From Stentor roeselii (Eukaryota > Ciliophora > Heterotrichea > Heterotrichida > Stentoridae): 64,000 bases of DNA. Under the pieces are notes generated by a model. The model was given only the letters and a program-made list of their open reading frames with translations. It was not told the DNA's origin and did not search any database. Position numbers and translations under genes: made by a program. The stretch is from NCBI GenBank assembly GCA_006503475.1, contig RSEH01000192.1, positions 28,086-92,085 of the forward strand, given 5' to 3'. Shown piece after piece: positions 7,133 through 63,722 of the stretch (the stretch's first letter is position 1; every line of letters starts with the position of its first letter).

Positions 7133-9457
7133 ATGAATAAAAACTCGAATTTAAGAGAACCTGGAAATCCTGTTGGAATTGAAAATTGTGGAAATACTTG
7201 CTTTATGAACTCTCTTCTTCAGTTTTACTTTATGGTACCTCCTCTTGTTCGTATGGTCTTCCAGGCCACGACTGAATCTTCAGACCCTTCTTCTTTGTTT
7301 CTGAAAAATCTACAAATTCTATTTGCTGAACTTTTAGGAAGTGCGAAAAAAGCTATCAACCCTCGACCTCTTTTTGAATCACTTGAAAAAGCAGCTGGAA
7401 CCAGCTTTAAATTTGGAAGTCAAGAAGATATTGGCGAGTTTCATATGATTTTTGTGGAAACTCTTAAGAAAAGCTTGAAAAATTCAGGAAGTATGGGAAA
7501 TGTTGAAATTTCTTTAAGGAAATTGTTTTCTGGGAAAAATAATGAAATTGTTGTGGTTGAGAAAGATGGGAAAAGAAGTGAAATAAGCAATTTAAGTTCG
7601 AAGTTTTTAAGTATTTTGATTGGGAATAAAGAGGAAAATCTTGTAGCTGAATGGCAAAATACTATTTTTTCTGATATCACCGGGCTGCTAAGGGAAAGTC
7701 TTTATCAAGTTGATGCGCAGCAGGAGATTTGGGTGGAAAAACTGCCTGAGGTCCTTTTCTTTCAGATAAAAAGAGTTTATTATATTGAAGGTTTTGATGA
7801 AACTTATAAGGACTGTACAGGAATCAAGGTTCCTAAAGACCTTTATGCTGATCGAATGCTTTTGAAGAATAAGGAAGTCACTTTGAAAATAAGAAATGAA
7901 TGTTTTGAACTTAATCAAAGAAAAAAAGAACTTCTTGAAAGTCTTCATGTTTATAAACCAGACTCGAGGAATGCCTTGATTGAATCGATAAAGACTCTGA
8001 AAACTTTCATGCAGACTCGAGAAGGTATTGAATTCAGTGAAGAGGTCTCAAAGAGTCTTGCATATTTTGAAGCTCTTGAATCTCACATCAACCAGAAAAT
8101 CAATGAAATTCAACAAGAAATAGAAAATATTGACTCTCAAATCATTTCCAAGTACGAGTCAATGCGTGATCATCGGTTTACTTTACATTCTATTCTTATT
8201 CACGACGGGTCTTCAGGCTTCGGGCATTATTTCGCATTGATTAAAGACCTAAGTCAAGATATCTGGAGAATGTACAACGACTCTATCATTAGAACTATTG
8301 AAGAAAGTGAAGTTTTTGACATGGTTCAAGGAAAAAAAGAAGGAAAAACTGCTTATTGTCTAGTTTATGTCAACCCTGATACTATTCTTCAAAGCTCAAC
8401 TGGCTTACCCTTGCTTGTCTTTCAACCTGGCTTATTTGACCAAGGATTTGAATGTGAATATCAATGCTACATCCAAAACGATTCAATTTTAAATGAAATC
8501 AACAGAAAAAACATTCAGATCTTCGAGGAGTCAAAAATTGAAGAAAGCCTTGGAACATTAACCATGTTTCAAAAAACTTACCAAAGAATAAATTCAAGTC
8601 TTTACAATGGAGCTAGTCTATATTTCGAAGAAATCCAAAATTTCCCTCAATTTCTTCGATCGAAAAATAGAAGGCAACTTATGATTTATGCTATTTTTGA
8701 CTTCTCATCAATGACACACTTTGGTTCAAGATATAAAGATTTAGACAATTCCATAAAAAAAGCAATTGTTTCTACCTGCAAACATCCGAGTTTTTATGAG
8801 CTGGTTTCAAGAGAGTATCAAGAATATGAAGAATTTTCAGTTTTTTTCAAAGAAACTCTTAAAAATTACCATATAAGTGCTTTAATCATTGAATTGATTG
8901 TAGAGTCCAAGTATAATCCTGCTACTCGCATTTTTTGCTGTTGCATTCATACAGCTGAGATGAATAATCAATCAGTTTATGACTTATTGAATAATTGCAT
9001 GAAATATGTACTTTTTTCTTTGGTTAAAGACTTGATAACTACAGCGAAAGGGAAGAATTTAACTGGTTTGACTGATATTTGTGATTCGATACACCTCTTG
9101 ATGTATGTTTTCAAAAATAACAGCTTTTCTTCTGGACTTGATATGGTTTTAACTCAAATTGAAAAAAAGTTTTTAAATGGGTTTAATAAGGAAAAAGAAT
9201 CTGCTGCTCAGTGCTTCGCGAAAATTAAAGATAAAAGTTTTAATTTGGATCCTTTTTATGAGAAGGTTATTCAGGATTTGCATACTTTTAATGAAAAATT
9301 CTCGAAGATAAACATAATTACTTATGAAGACTTAGGATCAACTTATAGAAGAATCCATGATCCACATCAGCGGTTAAATAGTAAGTTTTCTAAGTGGAAG
9401 AGCTTTATTGAAAGAGGAATGAATGGAAAAAAACTTGATATCAAAGATTTTGAATAA
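7133..9457 (+). CDS. Ubiquitin-specific protease (USP, peptidase C19)
   Basis: A cysteine protease that removes ubiquitin from proteins. From the start chosen here (MNKNSNLREPGN, ATG at 7133) it has 774 residues. The Cys box NPVGIENCGNTCFMNSLL has the catalytic Cys at residue 23. A QEDIGEF motif follows, then the His box GFGHYFALI with His about residue 365, and MYND about residues 380-383 supplying the Asn/Asp. A coiled-coil insertion lies between the halves of the catalytic domain, and about 380 residues of helical C-terminal extension follow it. The layout recalls USP25/USP28, but this assignment is tentative. The frame is open back to 6956, but that stretch overlaps the ankyrin gene; the conserved domain starts directly after the downstream ATG. 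Confidence 0.93.
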   Translation: MNKNSNLREPGNPVGIENCGNTCFMNSLLQFYFMVPPLVRMVFQATTESSDPSSLFLKNLQILFAELLGSAKKAINPRPLFESLEKAAGTSFKFGSQEDIGEFHMIFVETLKKSLKNSGSMGNVEISLRKLFSGKNNEIVVVEKDGKRSEISNLSSKFLSILIGNKEENLVAEWQNTIFSDITGLLRESLYQVDAQQEIWVEKLPEVLFFQIKRVYYIEGFDETYKDCTGIKVPKDLYADRMLLKNKEVTLKIRNECFELNQRKKELLESLHVYKPDSRNALIESIKTLKTFMQTREGIEFSEEVSKSLAYFEALESHINQKINEIQQEIENIDSQIISKYESMRDHRFTLHSILIHDGSSGFGHYFALIKDLSQDIWRMYNDSIIRTIEESEVFDMVQGKKEGKTAYCLVYVNPDTILQSSTGLPLLVFQPGLFDQGFECEYQCYIQNDSILNEINRKNIQIFEESKIEESLGTLTMFQKTYQRINSSLYNGASLYFEEIQNFPQFLRSKNRRQLMIYAIFDFSSMTHFGSRYKDLDNSIKKAIVSTCKHPSFYELVSREYQEYEEFSVFFKETLKNYHISALIIELIVESKYNPATRIFCCCIHTAEMNNQSVYDLLNNCMKYVLFSLVKDLITTAKGKNLTGLTDICDSIHLLMYVFKNNSFSSGLDMVLTQIEKKFLNGFNKEKESAAQCFAKIKDKSFNLDPFYEKVIQDLHTFNEKFSKINIITYEDLGSTYRRIHDPHQRLNSKFSKWKSFIERGMNGKKLDIKDFE

Positions 9458-9708
9458 TTAAGTAGTAATTAGGGTACTCTTGTAAGGAAGATTTATGATA
9501 ACCGACATTGAAGTAAACTCAAGTTAATAAATGATCCTAAGAAAAAACAAATATATTAAAAAAATAATCTCAAAATAGAGACCCATTTCCAAATAAATAA
9601 CCCAACATTAATCTCCTCACAAATCTTCCTAAAATCATTAAATCCCTAAAAACACCTCTAAAAAATTCTAAAATAATTCCAACTCTTCACCAATAAATAT
9701 CAATCAAT

Positions 9709-11412
9709 TCATCCATTTAAAGAAGAAGTTATCGAGTACTTCTGTTCATACTCCAACATCAAACTTTCACTTTTCCCTTGACTAAGCCTGCTATGTCTAA
9801 TAAGTCTTTCACGTTCGGCCCGATCCCTAACAACAAGCATTTTTCCATCCACCCTTTTTTCATCCCTAATCTCTTCAGCGAAAGCATACCTTTGAAGTCC
9901 AACAGCCCTTACAAATTTATTATAAAGGTTGAAAAAGTTCAAAATACACAAAAATCCCAAGACAATCGGAAAATAAGTGAAATACTGTTCACAGACCTTT
10001 GGCATGAAGTTCATCAAGTCCATAATTTTCATGAATTCCGTGTCTTTCACCTGGATTATCATTAAAAAGTTGTAAACGAGGATGGGCATGAGTCGAGCCA
10101 AGAAGCAGGCGCTGTAAATCAAGCTACTTGGTTGCGTTGACTTGTTCGGGTACAGTCCGTAGATACCTTCTAGCCGAATCTCAAATAAGGGGATGTGAGT
10201 CGCTAGAACTATGTAGGTCAAAGGGATAAGACAGAGAAGTTCATTTAAAAATACACCTGTGTTCATTTTGAATGCTAGTGAAAAAGGTGTTATTTTCGCT
10301 TTTATGAATAATGTTGACTCACTAAAAATCACTGCTAGGCTTAAAATTCCAGAAAAAATACTTAATACACGGAAAAGTAAAGAACGGAAAATACAGTAGT
10401 AGAGGTATTCTATTTTTTCTTTTAGTTTTTTGTGTTTTCCTGTGTGGGTTGGCCAGAGTTCTGATTTGATCACCCATTTTCCACGTCTTTTCGCGACGAG
10501 TACATCTTCTAACATATGAGCTTCAGTCATCATGAGGTTCCAGAGGCTAATTACCTTTTACCATTCATTCCTTTTCTTTTCAAAGACGAGGTTTTTTACC
10601 TTTTTATGCACCCTGACCAATTCCTTATAATCAGTCTTGAAACCTTCCTCATCTCTTTCACTTCCCTTCGACTCCCTCGACTCCCCTTCAACACCCTGGA
10701 GCTCATCCTTCAACTCTTCCCAAACACAAAAAGCCGACTTCCTTAAAACCTCATCAAATTCACAACAATCTTTAATCCTTTCAACCTGTCTTCTAATCCT
10801 TTCAATCCCTTCCAAAATCTCTTTTCTTTTCCCTTCCAAATTCACAACTTTAACCTGAACAATTTCCAAACTTCTCTTCAAATCTCCTTTCTTCCACAAA
10901 TTAACAGGAATAATGACAAGTCCAAAGCCAAGTAAGACCATAACCAATAAAAGTCCCCAAAGGTTACTAAGCAAGACGAAAATTTCAGGAATGTTGATAA
11001 GAGTCATCTGGCCAATGATCATCAAGTACACGACAAAGCCTGCGAAAGCAGTTCCGACAATTAAAATGAATTTTGCCTCGGTTTTTAAAGCGTCTTTCAA
11101 GCGGAGGGCAAGTGTGAATTCGCCGGACCTGTAGTAAGAGTTCATTACTGGAAGGACAAGCCAACAGACGACGAAAATCGTCCAATAAAGAAGGAACCAA
11201 ATTGGCTTTAAAGAGATTGGAGGGGATTGTGACTGGGAGAGGTAGATATCGTATGGAATCAGAGTGATTATGATGAATGAACTGAACCACCCTAGGAATA
11301 CGAACAGGTAGACTGAACAGTGGGTTTTAAGGCTGGAGTAACAGTGCAGGAGAAGCACTGTGAAGATAAATACGCATAGGAAGGATACTAGCGTTAATAA
11401 CTCTCCTAACAT
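9709..11412 (-). CDS. LMBR1-family membrane protein, LMBRD2-like (spliced)
   Basis: Two exons (11412-10562 and 10546-9709) join across a 15-nt intron into a 562-residue multipass protein. Exon 1 carries about five N-terminal helices with the family-like segment WFLLYWTIFVVCWLVLPVMN and SYYRSGEFTLALRLKDALK, then a charged cytosolic coiled coil. Exon 2 carries the C-terminal helices and a basic tail. Across the junction the protein reads NECLWNLMMTEAHMLED. LMBRD2-type proteins are plasma-membrane proteins linked to GPCR and beta-arrestin signalling in animals; the ciliate role is unknown. Read without splicing it looks like two separate genes. Length fits the family (500-700 residues). The family call is fairly firm. 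Confidence 0.88.
10547..10561 (-). other. 15-nt intron in the LMBR1-like gene
   Basis: On the coding strand gtaaaaggtaattag. If retained, the frame ends at once with TAA after GAATGG. If removed, TG joins C to form a Cys codon and the LMBR1 frame continues into the second exon. Confidence 0.93.
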
Positions 11413-59690: not shown

Positions 59691-61183
59691 TTTTTAATCC
59701 AATATTATAGTCCCAATGGTAATATTGTATTCAAACAAGAAGATGTTGATTTTATGAGAAAGGTTAACATAAACTAATAAGTTCGTCAGACTTCAATGAA
59801 ATCAGGAAAAAAGTAAACTCAAAAATCAAAATAGACAGAAAATAAATAAGTTCTTAGTCTACTTATGCAAATCTATGAGTTCACATCATAACCATAAGGC
59901 AATAAACTCAAATTTTTCATCAACACCACAAAAATCTCTTCAATCCCTAAATTTTTTTGAACTCATTCAAATTTCTTAAATCCATCCCAAATTTTCCTTT
60001 TAGTAAATTACCTAAAATTATAATTTCTAATTTCACTCAATAAGTTAACGCAACTAAATATATTTGTTGTGGAGTATTCAAGCAAGAAAATCGATTCTAC
60101 CGCTGATAGAAATCACCTGTTTAGCAATCTGCTTGATACTTTCGATATTGATTACGAAAATCATGCAAATATTAGAAATTCCGAGATCAAAAGAACCTAA
60201 TTTTTATCTCAATGAAAAAATACTTAAGTGAAATCCAGGTAAGTAGAAGATGTTAATGATCAAAATTAACAAGTTTTCGGCTGACCAAAACAATAGAATT
60301 CGTTTAAGTCACTTTTCTGTTAATGATCGAGATAAACGAATATAAATAATACGATTGTTTTCTCAACATTTTTTATGGAAAAAGACTGAAGTAAAAACCT
60401 TGTCTATGTGAGGTCTTCATAAGTAAGTTGAGAAATGCAACTTTATAATCCTCAGCATCGGCGCTTTTAGAACTTGGGACATTATCAAGCACTTCACCAG
60501 TCAACAGCTAATTTGTCAATCCTGGCCTGCAGTTTAAAACTTTCTCCTAGTCTCAGCTACGGCATCGCGATTAAGTCTTGCTTGTGAATAAAAATCGCAA
60601 TTAAACTGATTTTAGCAATGCTGAAATACTGCTCAGTAGTTCTCTAATGATCTGGTTTACGGAATTGAAAAACTCTTGAACCTAAAAACAGAACTCATGA
60701 GAAATATTACTGAAAACTTGAATCGGTCTTATTAAAGCACTTTTTTACCTCAAAGAAAATAATAAACGATTTTAACTACTTATCAGATTGACTTGATTTT
60801 GTGTTGCAATCATTTGAATGTGAACATCAAGAACCAAGGAAGATAAACTAATTCTTTCATTGTATAAACAAGAGAATTTATTTAGTTTGATTAAGATAAA
60901 TTCACTGATTCATCTTTGAATGTTTTCAGCTGATACAGCAAGGGGAAAATGTTTATCTCACCTCTTGGATTTTAATTATTGCTCTTGCTATCATATTTCA
61001 GAATAAGAAAGAAAATATCTTATTTTTAGTGAGTTACAAGGCTTAAAATATATATAGTACTAAAAAAAACATTATATTTAGAAATTATTTAACATTATTC
61101 TACAAAATTTAATCCAAACTTCATGCGGCTGTATTAATTCTTTTTCTCTTTTTCTATTCATTTTTACTAATCAATTTAATTAA
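59691..61183. other. Relic-rich intergenic region
   Basis: About 1.5 kb with no intact gene. Two coding-like pieces are visible. On the plus strand at about 60065-60200, 45 open codons without ATG (SSKKIDSTADRNHLFSNLLD). On the minus strand at about 60545-60370, with GEVLDNVPSSKSADAEDYKV then AFLNLLMKTSHRQGFYF, broken upstream by stops and a frame change (ARLNRDAVAETRRKF). These look like decayed exons of unknown genes. Confidence 0.45.
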
Positions 61184-63283
61184 TTATCTAGGAAAGTAAC
61201 TCAATGCAAACTTCTTCAATTCTTCGAATAGATTATCATTATTCAGTACTTCTTTTCTTTCAACTTCTATTCTCTCATTTTCCTGACTTTTTTGAACTGA
61301 ATCTGCATCAGAAACAAAACACTCGATAGCTCTTTTCAAATTATCTCTCTCAAACTTCAGCTCAACCATAGAAATATCCCAATCTGAAAATCGGTTTATT
61401 TCAAAATAAACTACCCTTATAACAAATGTTGTAAATTCTTTATTTTCATTCATAATCGATTCTGCATATTTTTTTTCTAATATTTGATACAAGGCTTTAT
61501 TAATAGAATAATCCTTGCTGTTGCTATCTTGTTTTTTTATTTCAATAATATAAGCTGTTGTTTTATCCTTAGGATGCCTAAGTACAATGTCGATTTTTTT
61601 ACTGTCCTTGGTCTTATATTCTAAAGCCCCGAATTTCGCATTTACACATCCATAAAGTATGGTCTGAAAAAAGAACTCAGGGTACTTCTCTCTTTTAAAA
61701 TATCTTAAAACCTTTTGTTGAAATGTTTTTATAAAGATTTCGGGATCTTCGAATTCATTTTGTTCGATAGTTACTCTGAATAGACTTTGTTCTTTTTCGC
61801 TGAACCAGGCTTTATTTAAGGTATCGAAGAATTGATGCCTCACTTCAGTGTTTGGGATTCTGTATACCCCTTCTTCATCTGCTTGAGTGATATATCCTGC
61901 ATCGAGCATTAGAGTCAACAATGACACTTGGTTAGTACGAATATTACCAAGATCTGTTCCATCAGCAGGTGTAAATTCAACATATCCTGTTTTGATTAAC
62001 TTTTCAATTAAGTTTTCTTCTTTTTCTATTTTTGTTTCTTTGTTTGCTTCATCTTCTTTGTTTTCTTCAATTTTTTTACTTTCTATATTTTCTATTAGTT
62101 TCCTATGTTCTTGAAGTGCCTCAATAATCAGAGCGGGATTTCCTTTCTTTACCCAATAATTTTGATAAGCAGGTTTTTTATTGTAAGTTAAATTATGCAG
62201 ACAATTCATAACTGAGTAAGGATTGTAAATCAAAGTGTCGTCTATCCTATACCCATTATAAAATTGAGATAATTCTTCTTTAATTTTATCTTCATCTAGC
62301 TCAAGTTTTGAGTATTGCTTCGCTTGTTTGATCAACTGATAAACATCTGTTTGAGTGAAGCCAAAATGTTCAACGCACTTAGAGATTCTTGAGGTAACAA
62401 CTGAATCGCGGTAGAAATTATTGATCCCAGAGAAGATCTCTTCATTCACAATTCGAGTCACCCCAGTAAACACCGACAACTGTATTAGATCAGTATCGTT
62501 TTTTATTAGAGAAAAAACATTTTTGTATTGAGTGCAAGCAAATTTATACAATTCAGGCGAATCCAACTTGACACTGACCAATGGCTTGTCGTATTCATCC
62601 ACAAGGATAATGACTTTTCTATGATGGTGCGTGTATAGGGATTCTACAAGGAGCAAAAGATGATCATCGATTTCTTTTGTAGCAAGATTATAACCTCCAT
62701 TATCAACATATTCTCTCAGAATACTTTTAAATAGTTTACTCTTAACTTTTTTAGAGGTATATAAGTATTCATGATTGATCATTGCTTTTCTAATTGCTTT
62801 TATAAAAGAAACTTTTATTCCATATTCAGACATGTTAGTAACATCATTCAAAGTGAGAGTTATCACTGGCAATGATCCTTGCAAATCAATGATTTTGGTT
62901 TCTTCATTTTTACCTGTAAATGGATGCTCACTTAATATTTTAGAGCCAATCAGCATTCTGGAAAACTTTTCTTTTTTGCCATCATCATTTATAATATTTC
63001 CTTTTGATGAGAATTTCGGTTGGAAAAAACTCTCAAGCATCTTTAAGTTCAGTGATTTTCCCCACCTCCTTGGCCTTGTTATGAGCACAGTTTTTCTATC
63101 GATCAAATCGCTTATTAGAAGAGATTTATCTATATGAAGGATGCGATCATCTAGAATATATTGAAAGTCTTCGATTTCGGGTAATATTTTTGTAGGTACC
63201 TTGGATTTATCAATATTTGTCGAAAACCTCGTTCTGATGGCTTTGACAGAGGAGATCGTATTCTTAGTTAGCCAATTAAACAT
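61184..63283 (-). CDS. AAA-ATPase-like / PD-(D/E)XK nuclease-domain protein (bacterial type)
   Basis: A 699-residue protein. The N-terminal 22 residues are basic and hydroxylated without acidic residues (MFNWLTKNTISSVKAIRTRF), like a mitochondrial presequence. An AAA-ATPase-like domain follows (about 33-380) with the family Walker A RPRRWGKS (residues 70-77), Walker B VIILVDEYDKP (about 227-237) and the sensor-like VFTGVTRI. After an acidic insertion (about 405-430) the C-terminal part holds a PD-(D/E)XK-type nuclease core, KIDIVLRHP (about 560) and YIIEIKK (about 575). This is the AAA-ATPase-like plus PDDEXK_9 pairing common in Bacteroidetes, Clostridia and endosymbionts and scattered in eukaryotes. 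The gene stands alone among relics, suggesting transfer. Function unknown. Confidence 0.88.
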   Translation of the reverse strand: MFNWLTKNTISSVKAIRTRFSTNIDKSKVPTKILPEIEDFQYILDDRILHIDKSLLISDLIDRKTVLITRPRRWGKSLNLKMLESFFQPKFSSKGNIINDDGKKEKFSRMLIGSKILSEHPFTGKNEETKIIDLQGSLPVITLTLNDVTNMSEYGIKVSFIKAIRKAMINHEYLYTSKKVKSKLFKSILREYVDNGGYNLATKEIDDHLLLLVESLYTHHHRKVIILVDEYDKPLVSVKLDSPELYKFACTQYKNVFSLIKNDTDLIQLSVFTGVTRIVNEEIFSGINNFYRDSVVTSRISKCVEHFGFTQTDVYQLIKQAKQYSKLELDEDKIKEELSQFYNGYRIDDTLIYNPYSVMNCLHNLTYNKKPAYQNYWVKKGNPALIIEALQEHRKLIENIESKKIEENKEDEANKETKIEKEENLIEKLIKTGYVEFTPADGTDLGNIRTNQVSLLTLMLDAGYITQADEEGVYRIPNTEVRHQFFDTLNKAWFSEKEQSLFRVTIEQNEFEDPEIFIKTFQQKVLRYFKREKYPEFFFQTILYGCVNAKFGALEYKTKDSKKIDIVLRHPKDKTTAYIIEIKKQDSNSKDYSINKALYQILEKKYAESIMNENKEFTTFVIRVVYFEINRFSDWDISMVELKFERDNLKRAIECFVSDADSVQKSQENERIEVERKEVLNNDNLFEELKKFALSYFPR

Positions 63284-63722
63284 TATAAAGATATCTGATT
63301 AGCAAAATTATATTTTTCTACCGTATTAGAATTAAGATAAGTATAGCTAGTTGTTGATATATCAAGAACTAGTCAAAATTTTGATTGAGTTTTGATTCTT
63401 GATTAAATATTTTAAGTGCCTTGCATTTTATAGACACAAAGATAATTTTGAATAAATTTGGTAATTAGCTTAGTAATTAGAAGTCTTATTGATTACAGAT
63501 GCATTTTAAGTGAATAAATAACTTATCGTGCTAATTTTTAACTAACAGGATTAAATTTTTCAAATATAACAAAATCATGATAAAATTTTAACAAATAATA
63601 AAAGACTAACTCAGAAAGTTAGAGAGTTATTATAGATCGTTTAATATTCCTTTTTTTGTTTTTTAGTCTTTAGTTAGAGTTTTTAGAATATACTTTAGAG
63701 AATTAGTGAGAGTCTTGAGGAT
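63284..63722. other. Intergenic region
   Basis: About 440 bp, AT-rich. No gene, RNA or repeat seen. Confidence 0.5.

Follow-up and report, generated by a model that had tools for sequence, protein, structure and literature searches.

Proteins of the DUF1703 family pair an ATPase with a nuclease, and the available passages of PMC1913061 describe their architecture as including an RPRRFGKS Walker A and a DEYD Walker B. According to excerpts of PMC6387759, they are widespread in bacteria and symbionts, with a role that source calls unclear, and the Cardinium strain cCpun alone has 25 paralogues. The same excerpts mention a DUF1703 gene of bacterial origin that resides in the nuclear genome of a eukaryote, Tribolium. 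Among defence proteins, RADAR RdrA is tabulated under the same ATPase profile, PF09820, in the parts consulted of the review PMC10952713.

The locus described here lies in a 64,000-nt stretch of Stentor roeselii DNA (contig RSEH01000192.1, positions 28,086 to 92,085; hereafter the window), whose right edge is the contig end. A single-exon coding sequence of 699 aa runs from ATG to TAA on the minus strand (61184..63283, defined by its open reading frame and Pfam), as do all features of the gene given below. Residues 37-284 (62432..63175) form an AAA-ATPase_like domain (PF09820, E = 2.9e-31, 109.3 bits against a cut-off of 26.1) also supported by fold matches, and residues 536-624 (61412..61678) a PDDEXK_9 nuclease domain (PF08011, E = 5.3e-7, 30.0 bits against 25.5) consistent with the predicted fold of residues 496-662; both scores exceed the curated cut-offs and are far beyond chance. 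A sequence-only reading of this DNA had described an intronless gene of a bacterial-type family with an RPRRWGKS Walker A and a KIDIVL...EIKK nuclease core, and these points stand. The Walker A occupies residues 70-77 (63053..63076; alignment and paralogues), the Walker B DEYD residues 229-232 (62588..62599), and the nuclease core contributes the putative catalytic D565 (61589..61591) and the E581 and K583 of an EIK motif (61535..61543). The reading frame is uninterrupted, and 28 of the 46 matches to the family in the genome likewise sit in stop-free open frames of at least 600 aa.

The window protein was aligned with homologues from bacteria or archaeal contigs, to which it is 24-30% identical; 67 of the 78 long ORFs entered this alignment of 68 rows, which shows R70, P71, R72, R73, G75, K76, D229, E230, D565, E581 and K583 to be invariant; K76 and D229 are also kept in 28/28 paralogues. 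With PF09820 at the N-terminal side, PF08011 at the C-terminal side, a variant Walker A, DEYD and a D/E/K triad, the window protein is, by its sequence, a DUF1703 protein with intact Walker A and B motifs and nuclease residues D565, E581 and K583. Two stretches set it apart in the alignment: residues 90-129, for which roughly half of the bacterial rows have gaps, and a C-terminal tail (residues 646-699, 61187..61348) mostly absent from bacterial homologues, with 95-99% gaps at residues 650-689 in the 67 rows.

The predicted architecture is that of a STAND/NLR-like ATPase joined to a restriction-type nuclease. In the model, residues 30-487 resemble archaeal ATPases in fold, VIA-align ranges reach residues ~487-547 on PABY2304, SSO1545, RPP1 and CED-4, and a nucleotide-binding domain, a helical lid and a winged helix, the combination that marks STAND/NLR proteins, can be recognized; from these ranges, residues 285-490 (61814..62431) would form the lid and winged-helix-like region. 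Residues 496-662, folded separately, match PD-(D/E)XK nucleases. STAND sensors are commonly C-terminal repeats; the Pfam matches of the window protein include no repeat family and its C-terminal part is the nuclease. Searching solved structures by sequence returned nothing of use (best E 0.17), and BFVD gave weak Foldseek rows for the predicted fold. The defence link proposed from the sequence found no backing: no family of the PADLOC 2023 library matched the window protein up to an E of 1, and none of 44 candidate stretches of viral contigs was confirmed as a relative.

A profile search of the genome assembly (44.4 Mb, 522 contigs) returned 46 PF09820 matches on 26 contigs, 45 of them above the cut-off, so the gene does not stand alone as had been supposed, though it is the sole copy in the window. 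Nor did the idea of a relic-rich zone find support as far as this family is concerned: tblastn found no family relics in window positions 1-61180, and the one shared piece nearby is a segment of ~110 nt described below. Clusters of 9, 4, 4 and 3 matches occur on contigs C144, C476, C158 and C379, some of them degenerate. For comparison we used 28 copies, namely 27 of the 28 whose frames reach 600 aa plus a shorter one with 551 aa. Homologues were collected by scanning prokaryote and viral collections, which yielded at least 575 confirmed stretches; 80 loci were kept, with 82 ORFs in them, 78 of at least 500 aa. Against these 78, the 28 copies form one clade (SH-aLRT 100), itself divided into clades of 22 (SH-aLRT 97) and 6 (SH-aLRT 99) copies. 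In this first tree a long Sulfurovum branch joined the family stem. A second tree, built under a mixture model from 47 rows, 13 of them family copies, and without the Sulfurovum row and one archaeal row, again gave the family clade at 100/100 and in 100% of 200 bootstrap trees, with only 88/78 for the larger subclade.

The branch between the family and the sampled bacteria measures 1.11 + 0.68 changes per site on either side of the midpoint, too long for a donor to be named. These comparisons with sampled prokaryotes are fitted best by a single, old acquisition of a DUF1703 gene from bacteria and its later expansion. The earlier proposal of a transferred gene thus survives in part: the phylogeny with bacterial homologues that it called for places the copies in one clade apart from sampled bacteria, consistent with an old acquisition, while a recent single transfer does not fit a large and diverged paralogous family.

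Directly 5′ of the ATG, the 28 aligned starts have TCAGACATNTTTATA-like DNA in common, and in most copies of the larger clade the conserved stretch continues to about 60 nt upstream. The window copy of this start element (63284..63298) reads TCAGATATCTTTATA, one base off the strict form CAGACATNTTTATAATG. The strict form occurs at 24 places in the 44.4 Mb, against none for the reversed control pattern; 23 of them precede a same-strand family match by 100-204 nt, and the remaining one is at a contig end. The element is thus nearly confined to the family. Of 26 window ORFs, 8 have a TATA in the 10 bases that precede the ATG, the window gene included, so this is not a general feature.

Considering the fold, the family and the N-terminus discussed below, we propose that an anciently acquired bacterial DUF1703 gene became a nuclear multigene family whose products would be imported into mitochondria as ATP-gated nucleases for surveillance or turnover of nucleic acid, a statement to which, taken whole, we assign a probability of roughly 0.43. 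After its synthesis in the cytosol, the protein would enter the mitochondrial matrix by import and be cut after F20. ATP binding and hydrolysis would then switch it, probably as an oligomer, and its nuclease would cut DNA (or RNA) in the matrix. The use might be surveillance or turnover of unwanted nucleic acid, be it foreign, selfish or damaged, in the organelle, and copies with altered nuclease residues may be partners, regulators or decaying copies. The surveillance or turnover role, taken separately, is a tentative suggestion. What the computation returned is a STAND/NLR-like predicted fold with a nuclease, a presequence-type N-terminus, a whole-gene omega below 1 in the tested pairs and a start element; to go on from there to a mitochondrial NLR-type immunity, in which dozens of captured, ATP-gated ATPase-nucleases sense and cut nucleic acid that is selfish or intrudes into the organelle and some triad-altered copies act as sensors or regulators in mixed complexes, is a speculation we consider doubtful.

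Mitochondrial targeting of the protein is likely, judging from its N-terminus. Residues 1-20 (63224..63283), a predicted presequence on composition, motif and conservation, contain no D or E and end in ...RTRF, followed by STN. This N-terminus is basic and amphipathic (moment 0.39) and carries an MPP-like R-2/R-3 site, the kind of site cut by the processing peptidase; the AF2 model places a low-confidence helix at residues 2-21. The basic N-terminus of mitochondrial type noted from the sequence recurs in all 28 copies examined: the ATG is aligned throughout, followed by F, I, Y or L and then by a basic stretch, and R-(x)-F-[S/T] or a close variant appears near residue 20, at the same place in both clades. 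No D or E occurs in the first 22 residues of 23/28 copies and a single one in the other five, whereas these residues are acid-free in only 1 of the 67 bacterial homologues. Absence of D/E together with at least four K/R characterizes 22/28 copies against 284 of 17,151 internal 22-mers, and 1 of 26 other window ORFs, namely an ABC transporter. The median number of residues ahead of the DKT motif is 30 in homologues against 51 here, with at least 45 in 8/67 homologues. What presequences look like in this genome is shown by its own Hsp60, which starts alike (MLSRISSTFSRSLIRSF-GAKDIK), and IscU (MFSRFIIPLRR), both genes being named by the present analysis.

It is unlikely, though part of the evidence points that way, that this N-terminus is no mitochondrial signal and that the proteins work in the cytosol or nucleus, where they might, for instance, attack foreign DNA. 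The case for targeting is built from composition, motif and conservation, some copies have a modest amphipathic moment (0.24-0.59), and codon counts show no selection on the presequence, since pN (0.121) is about equal to pS (0.129) over residues 1-24 and, among the 8 pairs in which omega could be computed for the 22 presequence codons, 3 have a value above 1. Against a cytosolic or nuclear role speak the occurrence of the feature at one place in 28/28 copies, its near absence from bacterial homologues and the same type of N-terminus in Hsp60 of this genome. As for the organelle itself, a phage-type RNA polymerase gene is present in the genome, COX1 has no match in the 44.4-Mb assembly, so mtDNA is probably outside it, and the universal small-subunit rRNA primer site has no exact match there; both mtDNA and rDNA may be absent from the assembly.

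Over the gene as a whole, omega runs from 0.27 to 0.62 in 11 chosen pairs (counts without a significance test, two sequences entering two pairs each), and pN/pS is 0.52 over 11 independent pairs, values that indicate constraint on the whole gene; omega above 1 also appears in the middle part of one pair and in the nuclease of one pair. The nuclease triad is exact in 12/28 copies, one of which ends just after it, E replaces D565 in 3/28, and it is altered or missing in 13/28, so nuclease activity would not be common to all copies. Of these 13, six keep the other listed Walker residues and seven change R72, R73, E230 or D232. Across copies the ATPase core thus outlasts the nuclease, although some of them may be decaying in both parts. 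For L042/L043, a pair with two altered triads, omega is 0.54 in the ATPase and 0.77 in the nuclease. The most variable stretch, residues 145-215, concentrates change to a degree reached by none of 2000 column shuffles. Neither positive selection nor an arms race on this stretch finds support: pN comes close to pS without exceeding it, and the bacterial homologues are at their most variable there as well.

These counts also bear on the idea of a stored mitochondrial DNase of ciliates, whose release after conjugation would break down the old macronucleus (programmed nuclear death) or which would recycle mtDNA. According to the accessible parts of PMC2829475, the mitochondria of Tetrahymena contain a strong DNase that awaits identification, and no homologue of EndoG turned up there; the window protein combines an intact triad with a presequence-like N-terminus, and its predicted ATPase fold is like Apaf-1/CED-4-type switches. 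A housekeeping DNase, however, has no obvious need of 46 divergent matches, and it would be at odds with a triad altered or missing in nearly half of the copies compared, which makes this role improbable.

The placement of the copies in the genome was also inspected. Flank similarity between copies (35 loci) is local only, and a mobile element is therefore disfavoured as far as this flank comparison goes. A segment of ~110 nt (59779-59886) recurs at 75-78% identity beside copies in L013 (two places) and L017. For the 41 copies with known contig size (5 of the 46 places were left out), 14 are found no more than 5 kb from a contig end, where 6.8 would be expected for these contigs (19 of 5000 draws reached 14), and 32 no more than 25 kb from one, where the expectation is 25.5 (55 of 5000 draws reached 32), an excess that is only suggestive of a subtelomeric location because assemblies break at repeats. 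The pair L034/L028 is 86% identical in the ATPase and 99% in the middle, a patchwork that suggests gene conversion.

Copies of such a family could also be selfish toxin-antidote or drive genes, spreading by harming cells without a matching partner. The available text of PMC6387759 cites a bacterial-origin DUF1703 gene within the Medea element of Tribolium, the family here is multicopy, diverged and clustered, and triad-altered copies could act as antidotes. No common partner gene is evident from the comparison of flanks, however, in which similarity is local only, and the whole-gene omega stays below 1 in the 11 pairs; we regard this explanation as quite improbable. The data do not decide among the stored-DNase, selfish and non-mitochondrial alternatives.

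Bacterial or endosymbiont contamination of the assembly can practically be dismissed: the homologues found are prokaryotic, Rickettsia endosymbionts included (only prokaryote and viral collections were scanned), but the contig carries eukaryotic genes and 15-nt introns, the copies spread over 26 contigs and form one clade apart from sampled bacteria, their acid-free N-terminus is nearly absent from bacteria, and the G+C and GC3 of the gene are within the local range, which bears out that this is a nuclear gene. Pfam searches with ten window proteins gave matches for nine and none for one; the plainly eukaryotic neighbours identified in this way include EB1, a Polo-type kinase, a bromodomain-BET protein, a ubiquitin hydrolase, CNNM and an ABCA-type transporter. 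The segment 45902-50020 (minus strand) encodes a protein of 1372 aa in which many WD40 repeats are combined with a long C-terminal part outside the repeats.

On the same contig, outside the window at 8900-10900, a diverged Cpn60-like paralogue (L131) holds two 15-nt introns, whose removal restores GPKGRNVAL, presumably a conserved chaperonin stretch. Similarly, at 9709-11412 of the window (minus strand) two adjacent frames, of 284 and 274 aa, appear to be halves of a single gene with a 15-nt GT..AG intron, GTAAAAGGTAATTAG, between them. A window-wide GT..AG scan gave no overall excess over the reversed control (all lengths together being fewer than in the control), with 15-nt candidates at 8 against 3 for a 40-codon threshold and 2 against 0 for 60, and 11-nt candidates at 12 against 7; the evidence for 15-nt introns therefore consists of three individual cases. 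The 27 window ORFs stop at TAG (12), TAA (11) and TGA (4). In Blepharisma, according to a passage of PMC9942806, introns are mostly 15 and 16 bp and UGA encodes tryptophan. Here UGA is a stop, and its combination with tiny introns points to a heterotrich-like ciliate, as Stentor is.

Some other eukaryotes may carry PF09820 proteins. Among the matches listed, the mention of Medea was the only published eukaryotic DUF1703/PF09820 protein that we found, and others may be in print. As far as the searched literature reaches, a presequence-bearing family of 46 matches in a ciliate-like nucleus is new, the kind of protein being already known. The function of DUF1703 proteins should be accessible to study in a eukaryote that has kept and multiplied such a gene, its copies sharing a start element and carrying a mitochondrial-type address. 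The case would also bear on whether mitochondria possess an NLR-like defence or quality control of their own against foreign nucleic acid, and on the identity of the mitochondrial DNase reported in Tetrahymena.

Of the closest known systems, STAND NTPases with NLR and apoptosome proteins (PABY2304, SSO1545, RPP1, CED-4, Apaf-1) are like the predicted fold of residues ~30-490, and MGME1 is a mitochondrial PD-(D/E)XK exonuclease. RADAR RdrA gave weak Foldseek rows (E 0.013-0.035); its partner domain differs from that of the window protein, which itself has no PADLOC match. Medea shares with this locus a bacterial DUF1703 gene in a eukaryotic nucleus and, by its description in the excerpts of PMC6387759 rather than by sequence, is set apart as a component of one element, where we find a diverged family with a presequence-like N-terminus. 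These systems also include the bacterial DUF1703 proteins, for example those of Cardinium cCpun and the Rickettsia expansions, with the same domain order, RPRR(F/W)GK, DEYD and D-E-K triad, and in which large divergent paralogous families also occur. Unlike them, the Stentor gene is nuclear and has a presequence-like N-terminus, a stretch at residues 90-129 that about half of them lack, a C-terminal tail nearly absent from them and a start element, in a family with 13 of 28 triads altered or missing.
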